In this document: positions 1 to 47,908 of the stretch, piece after piece
Position numbering within the stretch: the first letter of the stretch is position 1
Layout: every line of letters begins with the position of its first letter
NCBI GenBank assembly: GCA_022841345.1
Contig: JALHRR010000006.1
Coordinates: 1 to 64,000 of the forward strand
DNA length: 64,000 nt
Origin: Saprospiraceae bacterium
GTDB taxonomy: Bacteria; Bacteroidota; Bacteroidia; Chitinophagales; Saprospiraceae
Direction: 5' to 3'
Translations under genes and position numbers: made by a program
The notes under the pieces: generated by a model
What the model was told of the DNA's origin: nothing
Database searches by the model: none
The model's input: only the letters and a program-made list of their open reading frames with translations

Positions 1-112
1 ATTTTTCATATCCGCAATTGTGTTCAGTGAGTCTTTTCAAAGGATCCTGGGTGTGGCCTATGTAATATCGGTCTTTGGTAGGGGAGTATAGAATGTAGGT
101 GAAGTAAGGCAT
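1..112 (-). CDS. GIY-YIG domain protein, N-terminal fragment cut by window edge
   Basis: Translating the minus strand from an ATG at 110-112 gives 37 residues that run off the window. They begin MPYFTYILYSPTKDRYYIG and continue into HTQDPLKRLTEHN, which is the start of a stand-alone GIY-YIG nuclease-like domain: the YIL and YIG strands, then a conserved arginine in the first helix. Small proteins of this kind (about 80-100 residues, UvrC-N-like) are common in Bacteroidota, often in several copies, and their role is not established. The catalytic glutamate region lies outside the window. It sits just downstream of the tRNA-Ser terminator on the same strand. Confidence 0.8.
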   Translation of the reverse strand, partial: MPYFTYILYSPTKDRYYIGHTQDPLKRLTEHNCGYEK

Positions 113-157: not shown

Positions 158-245
158 CGGAGAGTTAGGGATTCGAACCCTAGAGACCCTTTTGGAGCCT
201 ACACACTTTCCAGGCGTGCGCCTTCGACCACTCGGCCAACTCTCC
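158..245 (-). tRNA. tRNA-Ser (anticodon GGA)
   Basis: The minus strand folds as a class II tRNA of 88 nt. The acceptor stem is GGAGAGT/ACTCTCC with discriminator G, the D stem is GCC/GGC, and the anticodon stem is CACGC/GTGTG around loop CTGGAAA, giving anticodon GGA. A long variable arm follows, then the T arm TAGGG-TTCGAAC-CCTA. The long variable arm and GGA anticodon identify serine (UCC/UCU codons). CCA is not encoded. Confidence 0.95.
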
Positions 246-334
246 AATTTTTCCAAATAATCTTCGTCAAGATTTATTTCGGAGTGCAAAAGTCGCTAAA
301 AAATTATTCAAAAAATAATACTTCTGCAAAAATT

Positions 335-28706: not shown

Positions 28707-29684
28707 TTAAAAATAGCGTGGATTGATCATTCGTTGAGAATCTTCTGATTCCCTGATTAGTTGATATCTAATTACGGCTTCGATACTACCACTACTATAC
28801 TGACGAATCTCCGAGAGTAAAATATCATAGGAGAAGCCAATAAATAATGGATTTGTGATTTGGAACCCAAAAAGAACATCAATTGATTCACCAAATTGAT
28901 TACTGGCACCCCCTGAACGATATGACAATCCAAACATATAACGTTTGGCAATCATCAAATTGGTATTGATTTCATAACTCAGGGGAGCATTATTTACATA
29001 CTTCAGCAGCGCCTGAGGAGTCAACTCAAGGTCTTGGTTCAATTTGACAGATCCACCGACCATCAGATAGGCATGTCTGCTCTCCCGGGACAGAGGGACT
29101 TCTTTATCATTGAAATCCAGATTGCTCGTTAATAATCTTGGAATGGAAATACCTGTAAAGAATGTCTTCGTTGAAAAATATAGTCCAAAACCAAAATTTG
29201 GGATATAACTATTCACATCTTCTCCCGGGATAGCCCCATCCATTCCAATATCTTGTGATCCTCTAAGTCTGGGATCCAAAAAATTCACACCATAATATCT
29301 CATTGAAGCCTGCAATCCTGCACTGAGTCTTGCTTCCGGACCTAATTGGATCTTATAGGCATATTGTGCGTCAATTGTCCAGGTATCATAAATGCTGATA
29401 TTATGCCGGAAAATATTCAGGCCCAATCCAATTTTCTTAGACTTAAGTGCCCCATCTACGCTAAGGCCCATGGCAGTAGGTGCTCCTTCAAAACCCATCC
29501 ATTGATTCCTGTATATTCCTGTAAATGTCAAATCACCAAGTGCTCCGACAAATCCCGGATTTATGACCCCTTTGTTAAACATGAATTGCGTGTATTGCTG
29601 TTCATGCTGCGCAGATAAGGATGCAGAGAACAATAGTAAGGTCAAACCTATGAAGAGGGGTAAAGTATTTATTCTCATTTTCAT
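28707..29684 (-). CDS. PorP/SprF family type IX secretion outer membrane protein
   Basis: The 325-residue protein has a signal peptide ending LSAQ, then HEQQYTQFMFNKGVINPGFVGA, the diagnostic start of PorP/SprF proteins, and alternating amphipathic strands of a beta-barrel to the C-terminus. SprF-like proteins are needed to export or anchor specific partner proteins bearing type B sorting domains. Its ATG shares one base with the stop of the giant adhesin gene, which argues for a dedicated pair. Confidence 0.93.
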   Translation of the reverse strand: MKMRINTLPLFIGLTLLLFSASLSAQHEQQYTQFMFNKGVINPGFVGALGDLTFTGIYRNQWMGFEGAPTAMGLSVDGALKSKKIGLGLNIFRHNISIYDTWTIDAQYAYKIQLGPEARLSAGLQASMRYYGVNFLDPRLRGSQDIGMDGAIPGEDVNSYIPNFGFGLYFSTKTFFTGISIPRLLTSNLDFNDKEVPLSRESRHAYLMVGGSVKLNQDLELTPQALLKYVNNAPLSYEINTNLMIAKRYMFGLSYRSGGASNQFGESIDVLFGFQITNPLFIGFSYDILLSEIRQYSSGSIEAVIRYQLIRESEDSQRMINPRYF

Positions 29685-32600
29685 TATCTTTTAATAATTA
29701 CAAATCCGGTTTTTGGAGTAGATCCATCTGCAAAATCAACAACAAAGAAGTAAGTGCCGACAGGCAAATCTTCTCCACGATATGTTCCTTTCCAATTGTT
29801 TAGGTAAGGAGATTCTTCAAATACAGATGAGCCCTGCTCATTGAATATTGTGACCTTATTGTTCGGGAACAAATTAGAGGACAAGCAAGGAATAAAGAAT
29901 ACATCATTTGTCCCATCATCATTAGGTGTTATGATGGTTGGAATGGCACAATCTGAATCATCGCCAATTCTGATATCTACCCTTGCTTCTGAACAGAGAT
30001 TGGGACAGCCAACTGCACAAATTCTATAGGTGTAGAAGTCATTTCCAACATAATTAGCATAGGCTCTGTAGTCAAAATTTTCGTCAATCCGCGGTATTAA
30101 ATTACCAAATTCAGGCGCCCGAATAATATCTATAGTATATGTCTCAGGAGTATCATCATTATTTACCATATTAATCGTGACCACACCTGCATAACTAACT
30201 AAAGCCTGATCATTTCTGGCAATTGGAGGAATTTGATAAAAAATATTAACTGTATCCCGCGAGAAATTGACACAAGCCCCCTGACTGAGACTCCATTGCA
30301 CTCTGTTGAGACCTGGTCTTAAACCAAATACCGAGGTGGAGATAGCATTGGGCATTTCTATGGTCAAAAACGGATCGACAATTGCCCAGGAACCCACTCC
30401 TAAAGTTGGAGTAATTGCAGAAATGAAGACTTCATCTGCATTGCAAGAGACTACATCCGGTCCACCAAATGCGGATGTAGCGGGTACATAATCAATATTT
30501 ATATTGAGTGGTATGGAGCTATTGGAGGTACATCCATCTATATTGGCTATGACATAGAATGTGTTTAATCCGGCATTAAATCTTGATAAATCGGCCAGTT
30601 GAATACATCTGGAGTTGGAAGCCGGAGAAACAATTTCATCATTCTCAGTCCAATACCATGTGTATAATCCACCAGTTACTACATCTGCTTCATTGATACA
30701 GAGTTCCAGCATTGCTCCCGGAGCATTTCCACAGACAGATGCATTGACAGCGTTCAAACCCGGTGCTACGGGTTTTGGTCTTACAGTTACCTGGAATGGA
30801 GTGGAAGGTGGGGATTTACAACCATTAATTACAATCTCTAATTGATAATTTCCACTATTGGCAATAGAAACCGGAAATAAGGTTGGGTTCTGATCAGATG
30901 AGCTAAACCCTGCCGGACCATTCCATATGTAGTCAGCTCCCGGTGTAAAATTGGTACTTAACTTAAGAGTATCACCTTCGCAAATCACCATTGTGCCTGA
31001 TATTTGAGGCCTGGAAGGGGAAGCTCTTAGCTGTAAATTGAAAGGCATGGATCCATCTGATACACAACCATCTTTTTCCACCCGGATTTGGTAGGTTCCA
31101 TTGTGGATGGCTCCGTTACCTGAATCAATCTTTAACTCGGGCACATTTGTATTAAATGTTCCGAAGGGTGTCTGCCAAATGTAGATTGCATTCATTCCAT
31201 AATTGGAAGTGCTGATGATGATTTCCTGTCCTTCACAATAAAATGGTTCTGCGTTGATAATCGGCCTGGCAGGAATATCTTTTACATTCAATATGACTGA
31301 GGCTGAGGTAGAGACGCAACCAAAACTATTAGTCACAACAAGCGTATATACTCCATTCATTGCAGAAGTCACATTGTTTCTGCATGGAGACGGAAGATTG
31401 GATTCATACCCGCCCGGCCCTGACCAAAAATAAGTATTTCCCGCTCCACCCGGAAAGACAGTTGCAGCAAAACAAACAGGAGTTGTTCCAGTTACACAAT
31501 CAGGCGCATCAAAACTGATCGCAGTAATGTTGGGCCTTTGAATTACTTCCACATTTGTTAATCCTTCATAGTCACAACCCTTGGTGCTGATCATTTTTAC
31601 TCTGTATGTACCTGCAACCGGGACAACTTTCAAAGTAGCCCCTTCCCCGACCCTCATATTGTCGGGCCTGAACCATTCATAGGTAGCGCCTGCAACATCT
31701 GTTGCAAATAATGTTACTGTATCTCCGCTACAAACAGGACCATTGTTGCTTACAGTGAAATTATAGCTTACTTCTACATCCACGATCAGATTGTTGGATG
31801 TCAATGAGCGACAGCCATCCAGTGTGGCAAATACAGTCCAGATTCCATTAAGAGCAGAAGTGATATTATTTAAAACTAATTCGCTTTCTGGGGTAGGAAT
31901 GGTAGATCCATCCGGATGATTCCATGTAAATTGATCTGCTTCATTAATATTGTTAACGCTTAAAATCAGGTTTTCTCCGGGACATACTGCAGTATTACTG
32001 GTGAGTATCGGAGTGTCAGGTCTTGGTTTTACAATTACTTCTACAACTCCCGGATTGGAAGCACATCCATTTTCAAATATAAATAGTGTGTATGCTCCGG
32101 AATTGAATAATGACGCAGTTTGTGTAATGACCGGATTTTGAACTGTATCCTGGAATGAAAAAGGTCCGGTCCACGAATAAGTAATATTAGGTCCAACAGT
32201 AGGAGTTCCTATGGTTAGCAATTGACCCTGACATACTTCAACAAATGCTGCAGTGACTGCTGCGTCCTTCTTAGCCAATACTGTAATTTCTTTTGAAATG
32301 GATGGCGGGCTGATACATGTCCGTGTCTCCACCTGAACGTAAAAGCTGTAAGTGCCCGGCGGCAGCGTAAGGTTGTATCCGGGTGCGAGCGTAGAATCGA
32401 GGAATGTTCCTCCAGGGGCAAGACCCCTGTACCATTTATAAACGGCTCCGTCTCCCACCTCCTGAGTGCTCAATTGAATTAAAGCACCCTGACAAACCGT
32501 GTCCCTGGCTGCAAAAAGATCAGGAACTCCTGGTTGTGTTGGAATCTGAACTGTAACTGTCCCAGTCGATATACATCCACCTATTCCAAGTACTGTAAGA

Positions 32601-35600
32601 GTATAGGTCCCCGAATAATCAGATGATACATTGGCAATTACCGGATTTTCCTGATTCGAACTAAAATTATTGGGGCCTATCCAGGCATAAGTGTATGCAT
32701 TTCCACTGGGAGAGACGGGGACATTGGCAAATAATTGGAGAGAGTCATTTTCACAAATATCAATTGTATAAAGCGGATTAAGAACTGTAGTTTCTATTCT
32801 CACTATTGTCTGACAACTGCTGCTATTTCCTGCAGCGTCTGTCACAGTTAATGCAACAACAATCTCCTGACCTGCCTGACTACAGGTAAATTTATCGGGA
32901 CTGACTTCATAAAGTACAATTCCACAATTATCGTTGCTACCCGCATCTATCATATTTGGCAAAAGAGTGGTAGTGTCCAGTCCGGATGGATGGATGAATA
33001 CAATGGTGCTTTGACAAGCTGCAATGGGTGGTTCATCATCAATGATATTTATATCGAAGCTGCAGGAGCCACTATTTCCTGAATTATCATAGACTGTGTA
33101 TTCGACAGTGGAAAGGCCTGAATTAAAATCTACATGGGGTCTTCTGTCGGATCCTGATAGTGTGGTAAAGGGAACAACTGTTGATCCACTCACCGAATAA
33201 GCAACATCAAATGCACCAAAAGTTAAAGTCATATACATGTAACTGGAACTGTCAACCTGACCACTCATGGTTACATTTTGCCTGATGCATGGATTGATCC
33301 CTACTTCGAGACCACCCGGAGGAATTCCAAATTCTACGTTTGAAACAGCTCTGAATGCCACCGATCCTGTGGATGCCCACCTGTTAAAGTCCAGAATTGG
33401 TAAATCAAATGTAATGATGGATTCATTATCACAATCACCATTGGTCACATTCGGCTGTCCCATTTCTGTAGTACCCAGCAGAAAATCATCAGGATCATAT
33501 ATTGAAAAATAAGCACCTTCTTCATCTGTATTTGCTTTTAGAGCAATGCTAAGTCTGACAAATTCTGAATCTGCGGTATTGAATAGTCCGTTAAAAGTTA
33601 TTGTTTTGTCCCTTGCCAGATAATCATTGAGGTCAGGATCAAAATCAAATATCAAATAGGCATCAGAGAGTGCGCCGGGTCTTGTCTCATTGAACTGAAC
33701 TGGAAGTCCGCAATTATCCTCAAAATCAAAAGGCAGGTTCAGGGTAAGTCCAAGCATACATGAATCACCCGGTAGTGCAAATACCATATCATCAGGGCAG
33801 CTAATTTCAGGAGCCTGGTCATCAATTATATCTATTTGTTGGAGGCAGGAGGCCACATTACCAAAGCAATCTGCAATATCATATCTCACAGAATATGAGC
33901 CAACTGTAAGATCATCAGACCAGCCATTTGCCGGATCCAGCGGATTAGCAGGGCCGCCATTGATGGAGTAAGTGAATACAGCATCTTCTGCCTTAGCCAC
34001 AGTATATATCAAATCTGTATCAACAAAACTACCACCGCAAATATCATTGACAGAAAATCTTCCGGGTTGTCCTGTTACTATATTTGGTTCCATCCTGAAA
34101 GTGATTTTACCATCCTGGATCCATTTGTTCATTTGGGCTGAAGTGAAATCAGAGAACTGTGTGCTTCCATTTCCACATTGCAGATTAACTGGCTGAGTGA
34201 TGCCAATCAATTCTCCATCCTCATCAAATACATTAAAATATTCTGTAGCCGCTTCAGCATCTGTATTATTTAGGGAGATGATCAAAGTGACCGGAAGTGT
34301 CAAAGCTTCAGCGGATGCAAGATTAACAGTAAATTCAAGCAATACCGGCTCAACCGGAACATCAATATTACCTGATTGGAGAGAAAATATAGGTGCCACA
34401 TAGTTACTTGTATCTGTAGTTATTGTGCCCAAACACAGGTCGGTTATAAGTGGGGGAGCTACACTAATGAAGGCTTCGCAGGTTCCATCGGCCACCACTA
34501 CATTAATATCTTCAGGACAATATTCAATTTGTGGAGGAACATCGTCTATTACCAGAAGATTGGCTTGAACAGATTGTGCATTTCCGCATCCATCAAAAAT
34601 AACAAAATCAACTGTTTTTTGGAGGACCGCTTCTCCATCGCAGGAAGGATTGCCTGGATTAGCCGGTGAGCTTCCCGGGAAAGTACTTGTATCCTCAATG
34701 TCATAAGATCCGGGCTCGGCTGCAAAGATCTGCGCATTGCCACAAGCATCTGAGAATGTTGCCCCGGCAAAACCACTGAGCCAATTCTGATAATCAGTCA
34801 ATACTTCTCCCAGGTCTTCACAAGTCAATAATAAGTCTTGCGGGGAATTTATGAAAACCGGGTCAGTATTATCAGTGACAAAAATTTGTTGTGTGAGCGC
34901 AGAACTGTTTCCACAAACATCCGTTGCAGTCCATTGTCTTTCAATCCTGTAAGATCCCGGGCAATTTCCGGGGAATTCAAATTCCACCAAAACATAGCTT
35001 ACCGGTGATCCACAAGCATCCATTATTGAATCAAGGGGCTCGGCGGGAGGTGAATCATTATCACCACAATTCAAATTGATATTTTCATCCAGATTGATCA
35101 CAGGTCCTGTTTCATCCTGAATGAATATCTGCTGAGTTTGTACTGCCGAATTTCCGCAGGCATCAGTCACAGTCCATTTCCTGGAAAGTGTATACGTATA
35201 AGAGGAACAATCAGCCGGGTCAGTACCTTTGGTATCCGTTTCTGTAAGTACAAAGCTTAAATTGAAGCGGCAATTGTCCTCAACTTGAGGCTCTGTTGCC
35301 TCTGGAATTTCGCTACAATCGACAGTAACATCAGCCGGAAAATTAACAAATATAGGTGAGTCATTATCTTCTACCGTCAAAACTGCGGAAGGCAAAGTAA
35401 TCTCATTGCCGCACTCATCTGACACCGTAAGCGTAACTGTGACAGACCAGTCACAATTGTCCGCGGATGGGAATGGGTAAGTTTCCGGATCTGAAGGATC
35501 GCCTGTTCCGCTTTGTGCATTGCTGTCGGTCCAGGTAAAATTTACCAAAACTATAGCGCCACATTCATCAGTTATTTCTGCACCTAAAAAATCATTTAAT

Positions 35601-37213
35601 TGTGCATCGATAACTGCAGCCAGCGTTTCAGAACAATCAATTGTCACATCTGCCGGAGGGCTTATCATGACAGGAAGCAGGGTATCAATAACTGTAAATG
35701 TTGCAATTGTTGGAGTTGACAACTCATTTCCACAACCATCTCTAAGGAAAAACGAGACAGTAACGTTTCCAGAGTTTCCACAACTGGCATTTTGTGAACT
35801 ATTGAGCAAGGCAATTGCACCTGAAAGAGGAGGATCTGCTCTAAAGCTGGTAAAACCACAATCGTCAGTTCCCTGAGCCCCGGCACTAGAATTGACCCAA
35901 TCTGTCAGAACTGCCACAATTCCAGCGGCACTGCTGCATTGGATGGTGGTATCCTGAGCAGGATTGGTAAGCAAAGGTGCAGCATTATCAATCACAGCAA
36001 AGGTGGCAGGCGCTTCTACTGATTGATCACAGAAGTCACTATACACAAAAGTAACTGCAATTCGTCCCAGTACAGAATCAAATGATTCTCCATTGATATC
36101 AACATTGTCTTCACATGGGGCATTAATTGAAACTTGAAGCAAACTGTCCAATTGATCCAGGGTAACTGCTGCATCATTTATCTTATAGGATATAAGAAGT
36201 TCTCCAATTCCCAGACAGTTATCTGAGGTCTGTACATTTGCTCCGCTCAATAACCATTCTCTGTATACCCCAAATACATCTGAACCATCACAAACATAAG
36301 CTGTATCCCTGGGTAACACATCAATTGTAGGGCCGGTATTATCATTAAATTGAAATGTAGCTAAGGTGGTTGCAGAATTACCACAAGCATCTGAAGCCAC
36401 AAAGCTTACCTGCAATGGAGTGTTACAGGCTCCCACCAGTGTTGGGTTTTCTGGAATAGTGGTCCAGGTGATTTCTGAACAGCCATCTGTGGCTGCTGCT
36501 CCGCCATGTGTGTCCAGCCAGGTTTCAAATGCAGACAATAAGGATCCATTACTACAATTATGTGTAAGATTTTCCGCGGGTTTAATAATTTCAGGAACTG
36601 TGACATCCGGAATACCTGTAATTTCTTGTTCAAAGAAGCCTTCATTTCCTGCCTCATCAACAGCCCTCCAGGTTCTGGTGAAACTCATTTCAGTACAAAA
36701 ACTGAGGGTATCAGAATCTGTGAAAGTTATTTGAATGAGCTCATTCGGAGAGCAATTATCTGTGACAGCGTTAGGAGGCAGCGTCACTTCATCTGTGCAG
36801 GTTATACTGACCTGGTCCGGAATCATAGATGTATTAAAGACCGGAGGACTTTGATCCACAAAAGCAATGCTGAATTCAAAATCCGTTGAATCTCCCATAT
36901 TGTCAAAGACCCTGTAGATCACAGAAACTGTAACACCTGCAGGAACAAAACCATCAATCATATAATCATCAGATATAATAATCTGAATGCTATCAATCAT
37001 GAACGGGTCCAGTGGAGTGATAATGGGATTATTCATGGTGTCCCAATTCAGAATTCCTTCGCAGCCATTTCCTACTGCAACAGTATCGGGACCCAGGTAT
37101 TCAAATATGAATTTATCTTCCTGAGCATGTGCTCCTATTGTATTGATAATCAATAGGGAAAATAAAAAAATCGCCTTTTTCGCAAAGTCAATTACGGTAG
37201 AGTATTTTATCAT
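29684..37213 (-). CDS. Giant cell-surface adhesin with HYR/Ig-like repeats and type B sorting domain (SprB-like)
   Basis: The protein has 2509 residues from the ATG at 37211-37213 (a TTG two codons upstream is less likely). After a signal peptide ending AHAQ, about nine hyalin-repeat-like modules run to roughly residue 1390, each opening with phrases such as DNTGPTI, DNAAPLL or DDQAPEI. About eight Ig/PKD-like modules follow (to about 2200), each with a VCQG or ICEG cysteine motif and a YxW core. A cadherin-like module and a gliding-type C-terminal domain (PTIITPNDDGTNDVF to GFVIIKR) end it. The many cysteines suggest disulphide-bonded modules outside the cell. Adhesion or gliding are inferred roles. 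Confidence 0.9.
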   Translation of the reverse strand: MIKYSTVIDFAKKAIFLFSLLIINTIGAHAQEDKFIFEYLGPDTVAVGNGCEGILNWDTMNNPIITPLDPFMIDSIQIIISDDYMIDGFVPAGVTVSVIYRVFDNMGDSTDFEFSIAFVDQSPPVFNTSMIPDQVSITCTDEVTLPPNAVTDNCSPNELIQITFTDSDTLSFCTEMSFTRTWRAVDEAGNEGFFEQEITGIPDVTVPEIIKPAENLTHNCSNGSLLSAFETWLDTHGGAAATDGCSEITWTTIPENPTLVGACNTPLQVSFVASDACGNSATTLATFQFNDNTGPTIDVLPRDTAYVCDGSDVFGVYREWLLSGANVQTSDNCLGIGELLISYKINDAAVTLDQLDSLLQVSINAPCEDNVDINGESFDSVLGRIAVTFVYSDFCDQSVEAPATFAVIDNAAPLLTNPAQDTTIQCSSAAGIVAVLTDWVNSSAGAQGTDDCGFTSFRADPPLSGAIALLNSSQNASCGNSGNVTVSFFLRDGCGNELSTPTIATFTVIDTLLPVMISPPADVTIDCSETLAAVIDAQLNDFLGAEITDECGAIVLVNFTWTDSNAQSGTGDPSDPETYPFPSADNCDWSVTVTLTVSDECGNEITLPSAVLTVEDNDSPIFVNFPADVTVDCSEIPEATEPQVEDNCRFNLSFVLTETDTKGTDPADCSSYTYTLSRKWTVTDACGNSAVQTQQIFIQDETGPVINLDENINLNCGDNDSPPAEPLDSIMDACGSPVSYVLVEFEFPGNCPGSYRIERQWTATDVCGNSSALTQQIFVTDNTDPVFINSPQDLLLTCEDLGEVLTDYQNWLSGFAGATFSDACGNAQIFAAEPGSYDIEDTSTFPGSSPANPGNPSCDGEAVLQKTVDFVIFDGCGNAQSVQANLLVIDDVPPQIEYCPEDINVVVADGTCEAFISVAPPLITDLCLGTITTDTSNYVAPIFSLQSGNIDVPVEPVLLEFTVNLASAEALTLPVTLIISLNNTDAEAATEYFNVFDEDGELIGITQPVNLQCGNGSTQFSDFTSAQMNKWIQDGKITFRMEPNIVTGQPGRFSVNDICGGSFVDTDLIYTVAKAEDAVFTYSINGGPANPLDPANGWSDDLTVGSYSVRYDIADCFGNVASCLQQIDIIDDQAPEISCPDDMVFALPGDSCMLGLTLNLPFDFEDNCGLPVQFNETRPGALSDAYLIFDFDPDLNDYLARDKTITFNGLFNTADSEFVRLSIALKANTDEEGAYFSIYDPDDFLLGTTEMGQPNVTNGDCDNESIITFDLPILDFNRWASTGSVAFRAVSNVEFGIPPGGLEVGINPCIRQNVTMSGQVDSSSYMYMTLTFGAFDVAYSVSGSTVVPFTTLSGSDRRPHVDFNSGLSTVEYTVYDNSGNSGSCSFDINIIDDEPPIAACQSTIVFIHPSGLDTTTLLPNMIDAGSNDNCGIVLYEVSPDKFTCSQAGQEIVVALTVTDAAGNSSSCQTIVRIETTVLNPLYTIDICENDSLQLFANVPVSPSGNAYTYAWIGPNNFSSNQENPVIANVSSDYSGTYTLTVLGIGGCISTGTVTVQIPTQPGVPDLFAARDTVCQGALIQLSTQEVGDGAVYKWYRGLAPGGTFLDSTLAPGYNLTLPPGTYSFYVQVETRTCISPPSISKEITVLAKKDAAVTAAFVEVCQGQLLTIGTPTVGPNITYSWTGPFSFQDTVQNPVITQTASLFNSGAYTLFIFENGCASNPGVVEVIVKPRPDTPILTSNTAVCPGENLILSVNNINEADQFTWNHPDGSTIPTPESELVLNNITSALNGIWTVFATLDGCRSLTSNNLIVDVEVSYNFTVSNNGPVCSGDTVTLFATDVAGATYEWFRPDNMRVGEGATLKVVPVAGTYRVKMISTKGCDYEGLTNVEVIQRPNITAISFDAPDCVTGTTPVCFAATVFPGGAGNTYFWSGPGGYESNLPSPCRNNVTSAMNGVYTLVVTNSFGCVSTSASVILNVKDIPARPIINAEPFYCEGQEIIISTSNYGMNAIYIWQTPFGTFNTNVPELKIDSGNGAIHNGTYQIRVEKDGCVSDGSMPFNLQLRASPSRPQISGTMVICEGDTLKLSTNFTPGADYIWNGPAGFSSSDQNPTLFPVSIANSGNYQLEIVINGCKSPPSTPFQVTVRPKPVAPGLNAVNASVCGNAPGAMLELCINEADVVTGGLYTWYWTENDEIVSPASNSRCIQLADLSRFNAGLNTFYVIANIDGCTSNSSIPLNINIDYVPATSAFGGPDVVSCNADEVFISAITPTLGVGSWAIVDPFLTIEMPNAISTSVFGLRPGLNRVQWSLSQGACVNFSRDTVNIFYQIPPIARNDQALVSYAGVVTINMVNNDDTPETYTIDIIRAPEFGNLIPRIDENFDYRAYANYVGNDFYTYRICAVGCPNLCSEARVDIRIGDDSDCAIPTIITPNDDGTNDVFFIPCLSSNLFPNNKVTIFNEQGSSVFEESPYLNNWKGTYRGEDLPVGTYFFVVDFADGSTPKTGFVIIKR

Positions 37214-37381
37214 AAACAATTTCTTGAGCTGTTTTCAATCACCACAACCTGATGACAGCAATTTACACTGTGCAGTTGGGGATAGGTAACAAATTTAAGA
37301 CAATTGTAGTACCTGCCGCAATAAGTTTGAAACAAATCTAAAAAATGATAATAATATACCCTGAAGAATTAGCCTGAGAGT

Positions 37382-41626: not shown

Positions 41627-42712
41627 TTAACGTTTCTCAAGAGGGATAGGATTCATCCGCTGGATGATTCCGGAATCTCCGGCCTTATAAGCATCAAATT
41701 CTTCCTTTGTGATATACCACATTTTGTCTTTTTCTTTATCCCATACTACGCTTGTATTGCGGAGGTCGCCGGGGAGTTTGCCGACTTCTGTCATTGTCTT
41801 TCCGGTATTTTTAAGAATAGTACCATTTTGTGTGAACAGATATTGTTTGCCTTTGACGGTCACAGTTGTGAACGGGCCTATGTCGTCTGTGGCAGGAATA
41901 CTGAAGTTTTCTTGCCAGGTATTGACATCCGGATTATTTGTAGGTTTTTTCTGCTGTAAATAAATCAATTCTCCTCTAAGATAAACGAATGCATGAGTTC
42001 TGCCTTTTTTATCGATGTGGAAGTCATACCAGGATTCTTTTAAAAGTGCTTCGGCACCGATAGAATCATTAGTTAAGGTGACTTTGGAGTTGTTTAATGA
42101 ATCTCCATTTTGTCTATTTTGAAATGCACGCGATAAGAAACCATGCCTGCTAGAAAAATTTTCCGGTTTTGATTTTGTAACTGTATCCAAAACTTTTGAA
42201 TGTAAATAGTCTATGCTTTTTATTGATCCTGTAGAATATCCATTTTGAAGTATTTGGTTGTAAGTAATCGAATTTCCAGCGTGATAAACAAGACTATTCT
42301 TATATATATCAAACTGAAAGTGCCCACCTCTTTGCCACACGCTGCGACCATATAAGTATGAAATTCTATGTATATAAGTTGAATCCTCTGAGCGTACTAT
42401 CACACTACCATACATATCTTTTCGAATACTCAAATCAAATGATTTATTCCAATTGTAGTATATTTTATTTTTTGTCAATATTAATCTTGGAGTATACTTG
42501 GTTAGATGAGATTTGGAATTTGCTTCCTCTCCTCCATATGGAATAAAAATATATTTATCTGATGTATCCCTGGAATCTGAAGGAACTGTATCAATTGAGA
42601 TGCCGGTTGAAGCCTCCTGTTCTGAAATAAAATCATAATCTAGACTTGCTGCAACCAGGGCTTCATGTTGTAGCACACTCATGATGCTTATTAGTATGAA
42701 TTTAATTCTCAT
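41627..42712 (-). CDS. Hypothetical protein, tandem paralogue 2
   Basis: The 361-residue protein has a weak signal-like N-terminus and no family that I recognise. The C-terminal ~125 residues (KGRTHAFVYLRGELIYLQQKK, then the GPFTTVT, LFTQNGTIL and DKEKDKMWYITKEEF segments) are nearly the same as in the preceding gene, while the front half is much more divergent. The strand-rich pattern with recurring aromatic residues may be a beta-propeller. Its ATG overlaps the TGA of the upstream paralogue by four bases (ATGA). Confidence 0.6.
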   Translation of the reverse strand: MRIKFILISIMSVLQHEALVAASLDYDFISEQEASTGISIDTVPSDSRDTSDKYIFIPYGGEEANSKSHLTKYTPRLILTKNKIYYNWNKSFDLSIRKDMYGSVIVRSEDSTYIHRISYLYGRSVWQRGGHFQFDIYKNSLVYHAGNSITYNQILQNGYSTGSIKSIDYLHSKVLDTVTKSKPENFSSRHGFLSRAFQNRQNGDSLNNSKVTLTNDSIGAEALLKESWYDFHIDKKGRTHAFVYLRGELIYLQQKKPTNNPDVNTWQENFSIPATDDIGPFTTVTVKGKQYLFTQNGTILKNTGKTMTEVGKLPGDLRNTSVVWDKEKDKMWYITKEEFDAYKAGDSGIIQRMNPIPLEKR

Positions 42713-43812
42713 TTAATTGATTTTGGAGATTTTCTGGTCAGTTGGATTTTGTTTAACTGGGATAAAATCTCTGCATCTCCGGCTTTATACGCCTCAAATT
42801 CCTCCTTTGTGATATACCACATTTTGTCTTTTTCTTTATCCCATACGACACTTGTATTGCGGAGATCACCGGGAAGTTTACCGACTTCTACCATAGTCTT
42901 TCCATTGTTTTTAAGAATGGTGCCATTTTGGGTGAATAGATATTGTTTGCCTTTGAAGGTCACGGAAGTGAAGGGTCCAATTTCGTCAGTGGCGGGGATG
43001 CTGAAGATTTCTTTCCAGGTATTGACATTAGACTTATGTGATGCTTTTTTCTGTTGCAAGTAAATCAATTCTCCTCTGATGTAAACGAATGCATGTGTTT
43101 TCCCTTTTTTATCTATGTGGAAGTCATACCAGCAATCATAAAGTAAATTAGTTGCGATTATAGAGTCCTTAGTGTAGGTCAAAAACTTTCCGGGCTGAGC
43201 ATATTTATTTTGTCTATTTTGGAAGACTTTTGTTAAGTATCCGCTCCTATTTGATACCTTTTTCAAATTTTTTTCAATCAAAAAAATCTTAGCCGGGTCA
43301 ATCAAAATTTGGCTGGTTGATAAGGAATCAACACTTTTTATTGGCCCTCCATATTCATTTATATAAGTAATAAAATTCCACTTGTGATAGACCCATTTAT
43401 TTTTGTAAACATCAAATATAAAATGACGGCTTTTGTTCCTTCCTTCAAATTTATATAAATAAGTAAGATATTTTAATTGCCCTTCTGAACTTGAATATAA
43501 TAGACCGTAAGCTGATCTGCCATCATTAATGTAACGATTGTTCAAATTGTAAAATATTTGATTTCCCGCTTTGATCATTCTTGGAGTATATTTCGTAGAA
43601 TCAAATTCAAGTTGGCCCCATCTATAAGGAACTTCTACCTTTGTTGAATCTTGTTTTGTTGGAATTGTATCTAGCTCATTAATGATTTTTTCTGAAGTGA
43701 GAATATCAGTTTCTAATGAATTGAACGTAAAAGTTCCGGTTGTTATATTGTAAATGATTATATAACAAAACATTGAAAGGAATCCTAAATCAAAATGTTT
43801 TTGATTTTCCAT
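42709..43812 (-). CDS. Hypothetical protein, tandem paralogue 1
   Basis: The 367-residue protein has a hydrophobic segment near the N-terminus (about residues 9-25), then a strand-rich body. It shares with the next gene the front motifs KYTPRMI and YNLNNRY-like strands and the almost identical last ~125 residues. No known domain is visible. The pair forms a translationally coupled two-gene unit. At DNA level the 3' parts are far more alike than the 5' parts, which suggests gene conversion or differential selection. Confidence 0.6.
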   Translation of the reverse strand: MENQKHFDLGFLSMFCYIIIYNITTGTFTFNSLETDILTSEKIINELDTIPTKQDSTKVEVPYRWGQLEFDSTKYTPRMIKAGNQIFYNLNNRYINDGRSAYGLLYSSSEGQLKYLTYLYKFEGRNKSRHFIFDVYKNKWVYHKWNFITYINEYGGPIKSVDSLSTSQILIDPAKIFLIEKNLKKVSNRSGYLTKVFQNRQNKYAQPGKFLTYTKDSIIATNLLYDCWYDFHIDKKGKTHAFVYIRGELIYLQQKKASHKSNVNTWKEIFSIPATDEIGPFTSVTFKGKQYLFTQNGTILKNNGKTMVEVGKLPGDLRNTSVVWDKEKDKMWYITKEEFEAYKAGDAEILSQLNKIQLTRKSPKSIK

Positions 43813-43938
43813 GGAAAGTCATTCTGAAAGTATTATCATCTAACCTGAATGGAATTCCTTTTATTATAACAGAATGATTTCTCCAGTAATTTCCCCATTT
43901 GTATTTTAAAAAAAATCTGCCTTTGATCCTCGTCTGAT

Positions 43939-45369
43939 TCAAGCAAACAGATCATTCATCGTAATAGAATTTTGAACCAGTCTTCTGGCATATTCATTGT
44001 CGCTCATTCCAAATGTAGTGATGAAGGTGATGAAAATGGATTTATTGGTTTTTGTCTGATTTCTGAATACCGCAGTTTTATTTTCAAGTTCAGAGGCATA
44101 GGCTTTGTCGAGAACAAATTTTGATTCTGAAAATTTCATTTCACAAAGATTGATGATGAAATCCTTGCGATCCAAAACGAGGTCCACCTGCGCTCCCTGT
44201 TCTTTTTTGGAACTATATCGCCATTGTGCCTCCTCAGTGTAAATGCCTGAAATGCCCAATGCCTTTTTTATCTGCGGGATATGCTTGAGACAAATACGCT
44301 CAAATGCCACCGCGCTCCAGCTCTTCCAGGATGAACCTGAGGATATTATTTGCCAGCTGCCTTCGCCTGCTCTGCGATTGCGCTCCATATATTTGTAGTA
44401 AAAGTGCGTAAACTCATCTGCCAGCTTGAATAAGGTATCTTTCGTTTTTCGATCGTAAGAAGGCTGCATGGTCACAAAACCGGATTCTGTTAATTCGTCC
44501 AGCAGACCGGTGACAGTTCCACCTGAACTCAGTTTGATTTTGTCTATAATTTCTTTTCGGGTCAGTCCTGACTGATTTCCTGCCAATGCTTTTACAATGG
44601 CTATGTGTCGGGTAGGATCATCAAACAATGAATAATAGAGATTTTTAAATTCAGTGGAAAGCAGGCCATCCTTAGTAAAACAAATCCTCTCCACTGCCTG
44701 TGCTGCACTTTCCCCTTTGCGGACTTCCTTCAGATAATGTGGAATACCGCCCATGATCATGTAAAGCTGGAGAATTTGAAATCGGTCCAGGCCGATGCTG
44801 CGTGATTTCAGGTACTGTTCTGTTTCTTTCAGATTAAAGGGCAGTAGTCTTATTTTTCTGGTAATACGGTTATGCAATCCGGCTTTGTTGTTTACTATAT
44901 TTTGAATCATCCAGGAAGCTGAGGAGCCACAGATCACAACTACCAGATTTTTTTGCTGATTTCCCCATGAGTTCCACCAATGATCAAAGGCGGCCAAAAA
45001 ACCTGATTTGTGTGTGTTCAACCACGGGAATTCATCCAGGAATATGACGGACCTTGACTGAAGTAATTTGGGACTTAGAAAATATGTGAGTTGCTCAAAA
45101 GCTTCCGGCCAATTACCGGGTACCCGGTAGATTTTTTTGCTCCCTGTAGCAAGATCAAGTGCTCTGTTGAAATTTTTTAGTTGGGTGGATAATCTGGCAC
45201 CTCTGCTTCCCACGTATTCAAACACAATTTCTTTGGCCAGAAAATTCCTGATTAGAAAAGTCTTTCCTACTCTGCGTCTCCCATAAACTGCAATCAGTTC
45301 CGGTGATCCGGAGCCCAGAACTTCTTTTAATATGGTTTTTTCTGTGTCTCTACCTATCACATTTTCCAT
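43939..45369 (-). CDS. AAA/STAND-like ATPase fused to a PD-(D/E)XK nuclease domain (DUF234-type)
   Basis: The 476-residue protein has an N-terminal P-loop ATPase of the archaeal-ATPase (PF01637-like) group: Walker A GRRRVGKT (residues 30-37), Walker B VIFLDEF (D112, E113) and an ICGSS sensor strand. A winged-helix segment follows (LTRKEIIDKI to LLDELTESGFV). The C-terminal domain reads QVDLVLDR and LCEMKF, giving the D396, E410-x-K412 arrangement of PD-(D/E)XK nucleases. Family members are scattered, multi-copy and functionally obscure. The start lies ten bases from a remarkable four-unit inverted repeat array. Role in defence, mobility or DNA processing is unproven. Confidence 0.85.
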   Translation of the reverse strand: MENVIGRDTEKTILKEVLGSGSPELIAVYGRRRVGKTFLIRNFLAKEIVFEYVGSRGARLSTQLKNFNRALDLATGSKKIYRVPGNWPEAFEQLTYFLSPKLLQSRSVIFLDEFPWLNTHKSGFLAAFDHWWNSWGNQQKNLVVVICGSSASWMIQNIVNNKAGLHNRITRKIRLLPFNLKETEQYLKSRSIGLDRFQILQLYMIMGGIPHYLKEVRKGESAAQAVERICFTKDGLLSTEFKNLYYSLFDDPTRHIAIVKALAGNQSGLTRKEIIDKIKLSSGGTVTGLLDELTESGFVTMQPSYDRKTKDTLFKLADEFTHFYYKYMERNRRAGEGSWQIISSGSSWKSWSAVAFERICLKHIPQIKKALGISGIYTEEAQWRYSSKKEQGAQVDLVLDRKDFIINLCEMKFSESKFVLDKAYASELENKTAVFRNQTKTNKSIFITFITTFGMSDNEYARRLVQNSITMNDLFA

Positions 45370-45378
45370 GACTTATGC

Positions 45379-45587
45379 TTATTGACAGCCAAAATTAATA
45401 AAATATTTGAGTTTTGGCTACGAATATATACTTTTATTGCCAGCCAGAAATGACTTTTATAAATAAGATTTGGCTGTTGATATTAGTGTTTATTGCCAGC
45501 CAGAAATCAATGAAATGAAATAGTTTTGGCTGAGAATAAATTACTTATTGCCAGCTAAAAATGATAGTATTTGTAAAGAATTGGCTG
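45379..45587. repeat. Four-unit array of 55-56 bp inverted-repeat units upstream of the ATPase-nuclease gene
   Basis: The motif TTATTGCCAGCCAGAAA (first copy TTATTGACAGCCAAAA) starts at 45379, 45434, 45490 and 45545, steps of 55, 56 and 55 bp. Each copy is followed by an inverted half TTTTGGCTG (around 45412, 45468, 45523 and 45579). So every unit is an inverted repeat CAGCCAAAA...TTTTGGCTG with a spacer of about 17-20 bp, and the intervening sequence differs. It directly precedes the ATPase start codon. Candidate operator array, RNA hairpins, or self-recognition sites of the nuclease. Confidence 0.85.
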
Positions 45588-45871
45588 TAGGTAATATTTG
45601 TGTACTTAAAATTTAAAGACTCAGGCATGTTTCTCATAGAAATATTTGTCAGGGGTGCAGCCTTTTTTTCATCCTGGTCGTATTATCCACATCTGTCCGA
45701 AATTGTGAATCCAGGGAGTTAGGAATTTTTTCATTCGGGCGGATACATCAGACACTTTGAGGGCCGGTAAGCGCTTTGTGAATATTATTCACTGGTCATC
45801 CTTGTGTCTGTCTTTTTTAAAAGCGAAGGATGTAGCGTGTTGAAATTGATTATAATTTAAAATTGAATCGT

Positions 45872-47908
45872 ATGAAAACGCTGTTAGCAAAATATGTACT
45901 GATTGCCTCATTGTTTTTGATGGGAGCAAATCAAACTACCGAAGAGTTCGGCAGATTGGAAGGTAAAGTCCGGGATGCTGAAACCAATGAGCCTTTAATT
46001 TTTGCACCTGTAACATTATTCAGAAATGATGAACAAGTTGCTGTGGTACAGACTGATGAAAAAGGAAACTATTTGGTACAAAATCTAACTCCGGGCAAAT
46101 ATATAGTGGAAGTAAGTTATGTCGGATATCAAACTGAAAACATAGAAAAAGTTCTTATTTCAGCCAGGAAAACAACAAAGCTCGATTTTAAACTTAAAGC
46201 CGGAGTATTATTGGAAGGGGTGTCGATTGTAGCCTATAAGATGCCTCTTATGGAGCAAGATAATACCACACAGGGTAGAACCATTACCAGTGAAGATATT
46301 CGTTCATTACCACTCAAGGATATCAACAAAATTGCATCGTCAAGCACAGGTATTTCAGAAGACCAAACAGGTGTTTCAGTAATGGGGGCTCGTTCGAATG
46401 CTACCGATTATTACATTGATGGTGTAAGGGTAAGACCTGGAATGGTTCCACAGTTTTCTCAGGAATTGAACGATGAATCGTACAGTAGTATCAGAGAGAA
46501 TATTTTCTACCGGGCTTCTGAAGAACCTTTGTCCACATTTTCCCTGGATGTAGACAGAGCTGCGTATAGCAATGTCCGTCGCTTTATCAATGGCGGAGAT
46601 CTTCCTCCACCTGATGCAGTGAGAATTGAAGAAATGCTCAACTATTTCCAGTATGACTATCCTGCCCCTAAAAACGAGGATGTGCTCGCAGTCACCACTC
46701 AGCTCACTGATTGTCCATGGAATCCTGAGCTTCGATTATTGCATATAGGTGTGCAATCTGAAAAAGTTGATTTTAAGGATTTACCTGCTTCCAATCTTGT
46801 GTTTCTGATTGATGTTTCAGGAAGTATGGATAGTGACGACAAACTTCCACTGCTTATAACTTCATTCAAATTGTTATTGAATCAACTAAGTCCGGATGAT
46901 AAGGTAGCTATTGTGACCTATGCAGGATATGCCGGGGTAGCGCTTCCCTCTACGCCTGTTTCAAATAAGCAGAAAATAATTGAAAGTCTGGATGAATTAT
47001 CAGCAGGCGGTTCTACAGCAGGCGCACAGGGAATTATAACTGCTTATGAGATTGCCAAAGAAAATTTCATTGAAAATGGCAATAACAGAGTCATTCTGGC
47101 CACTGACGGTGATTTTAATGTGGGTATTAGCGACAATAGGAGTTTGGAAAAGCTGATTGAAGAAAAGAGGGAAAGCGGAATCTTTCTTTCTGTTTTGGGA
47201 TATGGAATGGGGAATTATAAAGATGATAAAATGCAAATTCTGGCCAATAAAGGCAATGGGAATCATGCATACATAGATGATTTGCAGGAAGCGAGAAAAG
47301 TGCTGGTTAGCGAATTTGGAGGCACAATTCATACGCTGGCTAAGGATGTAAAGTTCCAGCTAGAATTTAATCCGGCATTAGTGGATCATTACAGATTGGT
47401 AGGCTATGAAAACAGATTGCTTGCCAAAGAGGATTTTAACAATGATGTAAAAGATGCCGGTGAATTGGGAATGGGACATCAGATGACTGCTATTTATGAG
47501 ATTGCCCTACATGGATCAGAAGTGCCGGGACAGGTCGATCCTCTGAAGTATAAGAAAAAATCAGGCAATGCTTCAAAAAATGAATTTATGAATGAGCTTG
47601 CAACTATCAAGTTCAGGTACAAAGAGCCTAAAGGCTTGAAGAGCAGGAAATGGGAACAAGTCGTAAAGAATGATCAGATATCACTCGCTGAAGCAGGTGA
47701 TGACATCAGATTCTCTGTTGCTGTTGCTTATGCCGGTATGCTTCTGCGGGACATGTCAACGCTTCTGGAAAAAGACTATAAACCTATGATTGAGCTGGCG
47801 AGCGGGTCAAAAGGAACAGATAAAGATGGATACAGGGCTGAGTTTGTCCGATTAATGGAGACAGCAAATGAGCTTCGTGAAAGTAAACTGACTGAAAATA
47901 GTCATTGA
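45872..47908 (+). CDS. von Willebrand factor type A protein (YfbK-like) with carboxypeptidase-regulatory and TonB-plug-like front
   Basis: The 678-residue protein starts at the ATG at 45872. After a signal peptide it has a carboxypeptidase-regulatory-like beta-sandwich (about residues 27-110, with the GKYIVEVSYVGYQ strand), a TonB-receptor plug-like stretch (about 125-190, ITSEDIRSLPL to YYIDGVRV) with no barrel, an N-terminal vWF module (about 195-300), and a vWA domain (about 308-480) with an intact MIDAS motif DVSGS (residues 314-318). A DUF3520-like tail ends it. The vWA binds a divalent ion and mediates protein contacts outside the cell; the partner is unknown. Confidence 0.88.
   Translation: MKTLLAKYVLIASLFLMGANQTTEEFGRLEGKVRDAETNEPLIFAPVTLFRNDEQVAVVQTDEKGNYLVQNLTPGKYIVEVSYVGYQTENIEKVLISARKTTKLDFKLKAGVLLEGVSIVAYKMPLMEQDNTTQGRTITSEDIRSLPLKDINKIASSSTGISEDQTGVSVMGARSNATDYYIDGVRVRPGMVPQFSQELNDESYSSIRENIFYRASEEPLSTFSLDVDRAAYSNVRRFINGGDLPPPDAVRIEEMLNYFQYDYPAPKNEDVLAVTTQLTDCPWNPELRLLHIGVQSEKVDFKDLPASNLVFLIDVSGSMDSDDKLPLLITSFKLLLNQLSPDDKVAIVTYAGYAGVALPSTPVSNKQKIIESLDELSAGGSTAGAQGIITAYEIAKENFIENGNNRVILATDGDFNVGISDNRSLEKLIEEKRESGIFLSVLGYGMGNYKDDKMQILANKGNGNHAYIDDLQEARKVLVSEFGGTIHTLAKDVKFQLEFNPALVDHYRLVGYENRLLAKEDFNNDVKDAGELGMGHQMTAIYEIALHGSEVPGQVDPLKYKKKSGNASKNEFMNELATIKFRYKEPKGLKSRKWEQVVKNDQISLAEAGDDIRFSVAVAYAGMLLRDMSTLLEKDYKPMIELASGSKGTDKDGYRAEFVRLMETANELRESKLTENSH

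Follow-up and report, generated by a model that had tools for sequence, protein, structure and literature searches.

A predicted STAND-type ATPase-nuclease gene preceded by an array of palindromes that its own product very probably recognizes

Why should a solitary gene coding for a predicted ATPase-nuclease be preceded by a regular row of inverted repeats, and which protein, if any, reads them? This question was raised by a 64,000-nucleotide stretch of a Saprospiraceae bacterium genome (GCA_022841345.1, contig JALHRR010000006.1, positions 1 to 64,000), hereafter the window. The original prediction, made from the sequence alone, described a gene fusing a P-loop ATPase, a winged helix and a PD-(D/E)XK nuclease, headed by a four-unit array of a 17-bp motif with inverted halves and a 55-56 bp step, and proposed self-recognition, autoregulation or an origin-like function. 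The array itself was confirmed: the 17-mer was exact at 45434 and 45490, with two mismatches at 45545 and three at 45379, the steps were 55, 56 and 55 bp, the inverted halves were present, and 10 bases separated the proximal unit from the ATG. Four matches with up to three mismatches were found in the window, against a mean of 0.38 in 100 shuffles, none of which reached four. The features are listed in the table below.

Features of the window considered in this study (position 1 is the first letter of the window)
Coordinates	Strand	Feature	Remarks
43939-45369	-	476-aa protein, ATG start	STAND/ATPase_2 P-loop ATPase (Walker A G30-T37, Walker B D112/E113), winged helix (recognition helix 283-295, wing about 303-312), C-terminal PD-(D/E)XK nuclease (D396, E410, K412)
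45380-45426		Palindromic unit 1 (gene-proximal)	Gene-side arm region contains TAATTTTG, a match to the Bacteroidota -7 box TAnnTTTG
45435-45482		Palindromic unit 2	
45491-45538		Palindromic unit 3	Best-scoring unit, used for the window in the covariation tests
45546-45593		Palindromic unit 4	Outermost, lowest-scoring
41627-42712 and 42709-43812		Tandem pair of paralogous proteins directly downstream of the ATPase gene	52% identity over 347 aligned columns; no Pfam match at E<=1e-4
29684-37219		2511-aa protein	HYR and Ig-like domains and a CHU_C type IX secretion signal

The protein was first placed by profile and structure comparisons. It matched ATPase_2 above the Pfam cut-off (56.6 bits against 33.2), and was a full-length match to the PADLOC phage defence candidate PDC-S27 (PDLC04984; 653.6 bits, E=4.4e-197, residues 1-475 against 1-473/474 of the profile). 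This candidate was counted as 3503 archaeal and 4562 bacterial systems in PMC12988326, where neither a validated function nor an upstream array was encountered. DUF234, the C-terminal domain of ATPase_2-DUF234 proteins, gave no hit in the window protein, although 29 of the 72 aligned members hit it at E<=0.01, which leaves its presence here undecided. An AlphaFold2 model built on an alignment of these 72 sequences (pLDDT 92.3, pTM 0.90) gave a P-loop ATPase, a winged helix and a C-terminal nuclease domain. The closest solved folds were the ATPase_2 proteins PABY2304 (2qen) and SSO1545 (2fna), with Z of 20.4 and 20.1 and 302 and 298 aligned residues spanning the ATPase and the winged helix; these proteins are about 350 residues long, and the match stopped at residue 326-327 of the model, before the nuclease. 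STAND/NLR proteins (CED-4, resistosomes) matched over residues 1 to about 330-390 (Z about 14.5-16.6), but in the window protein the winged helix appears to read DNA and the effector is a nuclease. The nuclease domain modelled alone (pLDDT 93.2) resembled restriction-endonuclease-like folds, among them nucleases such as Card1, Cdn1 and EndoMS, only weakly, the single hit at E<=0.001 being AF1548, of unknown function; nevertheless, the D...ExK motif was present, and the residues named in the original prediction were conserved in 202 non-redundant homologues (K36 202, T37 200 with 2 S, D112 202, E113 202, D396 200, E410 202, K412 202), the catalytic ones being also kept in 59-60 of 60 homologues of a later held-out set.

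The original prediction would have failed if the motif had been absent upstream of orthologues or had proved to be a common genome-wide repeat, and both conditions were examined. In the whole genome, the 17-mer had 44 matches with up to three mismatches (29 forward, 15 reverse; 1 and 4 for a reversed-pattern control), but the four in the array were the only ones within 200 bp of each other, the best outside being two single sites with two mismatches on other contigs, and its reading as a genome repeat was rejected. A remote ATPase_2 paralogue of the same genome (locus L002, C1:84816, 24% identity; L numbers designate the collected loci) showed no palindrome array within 300 bp of its first ATG. 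To examine the orthologues, 212 loci were collected, of which L079 and L036 were dropped for their short frames and 202 of the remaining 210 were kept at <90% identity (median pairwise protein identity 46%). Inverted repeats of score >=10 were found within 140 bp of the start in 151 of 201 loci (L185, with only 60 bp upstream, being left out), against 6 of 402 shuffles, 13 of 195 windows further upstream and 4 of 201 in-gene windows. Similarly, a paired-arm model found a site of score >=8 upstream of 188 of 202 loci and in 0 of 202 in-gene stretches. The matrix of this model was trained on homologue sites, making the latter count partly circular; however, the matrix-free count above and a held-out set, comprising 60 of 75 full-length among 76 new loci (68 from a search of the class and 8 from a viral scan), served as checks, and in the held-out set 51 of 60 loci had the array against 0 of 120 controls (60 in-gene and 60 shuffled upstream). 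In multi-copy genomes only the best 4 or 5 candidates were scored by the search. Neither of the conditions that would have refuted it held, and the proposed interpretation was thus supported, with one expectation changed: the 17-bp sequence itself is not conserved, whereas palindromy, spacing and a TATA...GC...AAA frame are.

The array was not universal in the sample, since 14 of 202 and 9 of 60 homologues scored below 8. Among the 14 were haloarchaeal, Malaciobacter and Desulfosarcina relatives; two haloarchaeal, one Malaciobacter and one Desulfosarcina relative had no array of this type, and the Wolbachia phage copy had different repeats, but some of the 14 (L092, L130) do have a palindrome that was missed by the geometry imposed. 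Outside Bacteroidota, records with a site included, by their titles or taxonomy, Planctomycetes, Verrucomicrobia, Kiritimatiellae and Butyrivibrio, most of them metagenome bins whose labels were not checked. The layout was described in the 183 loci with score >=12, of which 64 had one unit, 91 two, 20 three, 4 four and 4 five, with up to 9 half-sites per locus. Arms within a unit started 33 or 34 bp apart in 240 of 247 listed pairs, and units were repeated every 50-56 bp in 129 of 159 gaps, about five helical turns, the step in the window (55-56) being a little longer than the usual 51-54 of the family. The end of the proximal unit was placed at a median of 11 bp before the ATG.

The half-site letters varied between loci but mostly agreed between arms, and this variation was used to ask which residues go with them. 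Covariation over the 186 loci with site score >=10 revealed residue 282 for positions 12 and 13 (Z 41.8 and 24.7), 310 for position 14 (28.7), and 285 and 288 for position 9 (20.7 and 12.4). The resulting code was simple: S or T at 282 went with CA in 84 of 86 loci, D mostly with GG or TG, N with T first and then mostly A or T, and E mostly with GA, while K310 went with A in 102 of 112, R310 with T in 39 of 53 and R288 with G in 43 of 48. In the predicted structure, residues 282-288 lie at the start of the recognition helix and 310 between the wing strands, so that the order along the half-site is coherent, with the wing inside, the recognition helix in the middle and a loop of the ATPase domain (residues 120/121, a weaker association) at the outer TATA. 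In the 51 held-out loci with a site, residue 282 ranked first of 427 for positions 12 and 13, 310 first for 14, 285 first for 8 and 9, 288 second for 9, 121 first for 4 and 120 second for 5, but the pair 16-315 did not replicate. Residues outside the winged helix were also coupled to the site, both in the first set (W383 14.6, R56 12.4, F128 10.6, L25 10.4 and others) and in the held-out set (I367 7.3, F404 6.6 and others), indicating that relatedness or indirect effects contribute to the signal, and the permutation Z values do not correct for phylogeny.

Since relatedness can mimic covariation, additional tests were performed, which together with the held-out covariation address this point in part. 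At matched protein identity (0.38-0.52), the probability of the same base at position 12 was 0.87 when residue 282 agreed and 0.21 when it did not. Prediction from relatives <55% identical reached 0.70 at position 9, against 0.24 for the majority base and 0.32 for the nearest homologue, and 0.87 at position 12, against 0.50 and 0.62. In the held-out set, the corresponding values were 0.745, 0.235 and 0.578 at position 9, 0.902, 0.529 and 0.765 at position 12, 0.843, 0.765 and 0.784 at position 13, and 0.902, 0.775 and 0.853 at position 14. Prediction at position 5 (0.598) was below the majority base (0.627), and position 4 gained little (0.824 against 0.784), so the ATPase-loop contact is tentative; position 16 also gained little (0.588 against 0.539). 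Moreover, among paralogues of 26 genomes the own array was ranked first in 76 of 88 cases (26 expected by chance) and preferred in 225 of 242 pairwise comparisons. Avoidance of cross-talk between paralogues was not detected, the site similarity being 3.91 of 8 within genomes (121 pairs) and 3.84 between genomes (5874 pairs; permutation P(null<=obs)=0.72). The code, trained on distant relatives, was also applied to the window: for its best unit, residues T285/G288, S282, K310, H120, K121, T285 and K315 predicted A at 9, CA at 12-13, A at 14, T at 5, T at 4, C at 8 and A at 16, and all matched in both arms except position 14 in one arm.

Could these units act as RNA instead, as small RNAs, type III antitoxin-like elements or processing signals? 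Each unit could fold as a stem-loop, and the arrays lie in front of a putative toxic gene. However, mismatches between arms showed no excess of G.U-type over A.C-type (156 against 176, P=0.30), and in multi-unit loci the arms agreed as well across units (left-left 0.842, right-right 0.851, left-right 0.803) as within one (0.813). No Rfam family matched 43500-46000, and the letters follow DNA-recognition residues. The RNA reading was therefore rejected and is considered very unlikely.

The position of the array gave moderate, though only indirect, support to autoregulation. The -7 box motif was found in the gene-facing arm of the proximal unit in 61 of 183 loci and in the opposite arm in 16 of 183, and in the second unit in 20 of 119 and 6 of 119, respectively, whereas sigma-70-type promoter matches near the gene were at chance level (8 against 6.6, sd 2.8). 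It is proposed, with moderate confidence, that a single-gene, NLR-like (STAND) ATPase-nuclease binds, through its own winged helix, an array of palindromes lying over its promoter region. What the analysis supports directly, by covariation and in the absence of any binding, repression or phage assay, is that residues 282, 285, 288 and 310 go with the half-site letters, so that the protein very probably binds its own array as DNA. The remainder is inferred: a dimer would sit on each palindrome, units about five helical turns apart would let neighbouring dimers contact each other, and occupancy would repress transcription and hold a dangerous ATPase-nuclease in a low, inactive, tethered state. 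A trigger, perhaps phage attack, would change the nucleotide state, release and oligomerize the protein and activate the nuclease against invading or host DNA; neither the trigger nor the nuclease target is known. Autoregulation through inverted repeats is also found in AbiE-type systems (PMC7319586), but there a separate antitoxin binds, whereas here regulator and putative effector are one polypeptide. As for defence, it rests on the PADLOC candidate label only; among 128 nearest neighbours of the usable members of 80 fetched loci no conserved partner and few defence families were found, the commonest being PDC-S01 with 4 (AbiEi, 2).

An alternative is that the array serves chiefly as a tether, decoy or nucleation platform, origin- or centromere-like, or as an off-switch that is lost with the gene, and not as a promoter operator. 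In its favour are the number of half-sites, the units found 3′ of the gene in a subset of loci, and the fold resemblance to archaeal Cdc6/Orc1 bound to origin DNA (2qby), an AAA+ plus winged helix protein in which both parts contact DNA at inverted repeats; a similar two-part reading is inferred here. There is no nuclease in Cdc6/Orc1, and here the array abuts a solo gene. An origin role was not tested and nothing observed points to it. Furthermore, the proximal unit usually sits just before the ATG with its gene-facing arm enriched for a -7 box, the array is confined to one place in the genome of the window, and no replication or partition partner recurred among the neighbours, making this alternative unlikely.

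A more serious rival, although still doubtful, is that the palindromes are the ends of a one-gene mobile element, whose ATPase-nuclease recognizes its own units and cuts or moves the cassette, as TnsA/TnsC-type machines do, with autoregulation as a by-product. In 26 of the 99 loci (of the 183) with at least 110 bp downstream, a full unit of the same address overlapped or began within about 12 bp of the stop codon, which is not needed for simple autorepression; at the same threshold of 12, the own profile gave 0 of 95 at +200..310 and profiles of other loci gave 14 of 297 at the same place. Many of these loci had one unit 5′ and one 3′ instead of two 5′, and in several (L064, L066, L067, L110 and others carry such a unit) the TTATAA of the half-site overlapped the stop codon. 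Most loci showed no unit after the stop, the window locus included, which was not among the best 70 of the 99 ranked for a 3′ unit and thus has its units at the 5′ end only. In seven locus pairs (four groups) with at least 79% DNA identity and no flank homology, the shared block started at -108 to -123, about the outer edge of a two-unit array, and ended at -26 to +16 from the stop. On the other hand, L155 with L108 and L146 (one pair in effect; 84%) shared all 85 bp available after the stop, pairs at one locus (L089/L080, L075/L069, L074/L071) ran on through the flanks, and in L060 and L190 more units lay outside the shared block. Array plus ORF may also be shared simply because only that block is under selection.

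The distribution of the gene also bears on mobility. Copies were patchy and multi-copy, being found in 53 of 298 genomes of the order at E<=1e-60 and in 48 of 395 genomes of the class at a stricter cut-off, and the only PDB sequence hits of the family profile at E<=0.01 were two TnsC sequences. A tRNA gene lay on the opposite strand 55-305 bp downstream of the stop in 6 of 107 loci with at least 400 bp of downstream sequence (L043, L101, L015, L025, L022, L017), but tRNAs were also found upstream, in 6 loci at 201-1644 bp. In Wolbachia phage WO (L120, MN180249.1), the homologue lies between capsid genes; none of seven other WO stretches compared aligned over the gene, and the four inspected at sequence level held a single ACCGCC...GGCGGT-type palindrome at the place, which is suggestive. 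The reading as a mainly viral gene was rejected: 9 relatives were found in one viral scan and 8 phage records matched, while 137 plasmid records matched, 68 of them over at least 80% of the query. No target duplication was noticed by eye, no evidence of strand transfer was found, and flank searches in Bacteroidota gave no clean empty site: the L024 flank hit a region matched in 55 of 59 genomes of the genus, the L017 flank was a multi-copy sequence with 6 places in its own genome, and the L022 flank was matched in 79 of 79 genomes of the genus but mostly only from about the tRNA outward, nothing of L022 before that flank matching the 29 fetched loci compared. These observations, with the WO comparison, leave the existence of filled and empty sites undecided, and recent bursts are not visible, as paralogues in one genome have unrelated sites (0 of 121 pairs identical).

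No paper describing such arrays was found, judging from titles and the start of abstracts, in the literature on PDC-S27, DUF234, COG1672, PF01637, SSO1545-type proteins, DUF4143 and inverted repeats (including PMC12988326, PMC1913061 and PMC5760070), in a search that left out preprints and most subscription papers and so does not show absence from print. A bolder reading, which is not excluded but is held only tentatively, is that PDC-S27 genes are self-addressed DNA machines, in which array and gene form one mobile unit, an NLR-like ATPase-nuclease is held on, and acts through, its own palindromes, and each copy carries a private address evolving by paired changes in a readable residue-to-base code. 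For the branch studied here, a defence-candidate family counted about 8,000 times in one survey (PMC12988326) gains a cis site, a predicted DNA-binding surface and a residue-to-base code that can be tested with single substitutions, and the natural set of diverged protein-operator pairs is also a large data set for winged-helix DNA recognition. Such a system would join an NLR-type ATPase, its effector nuclease and its own regulator in one polypeptide.
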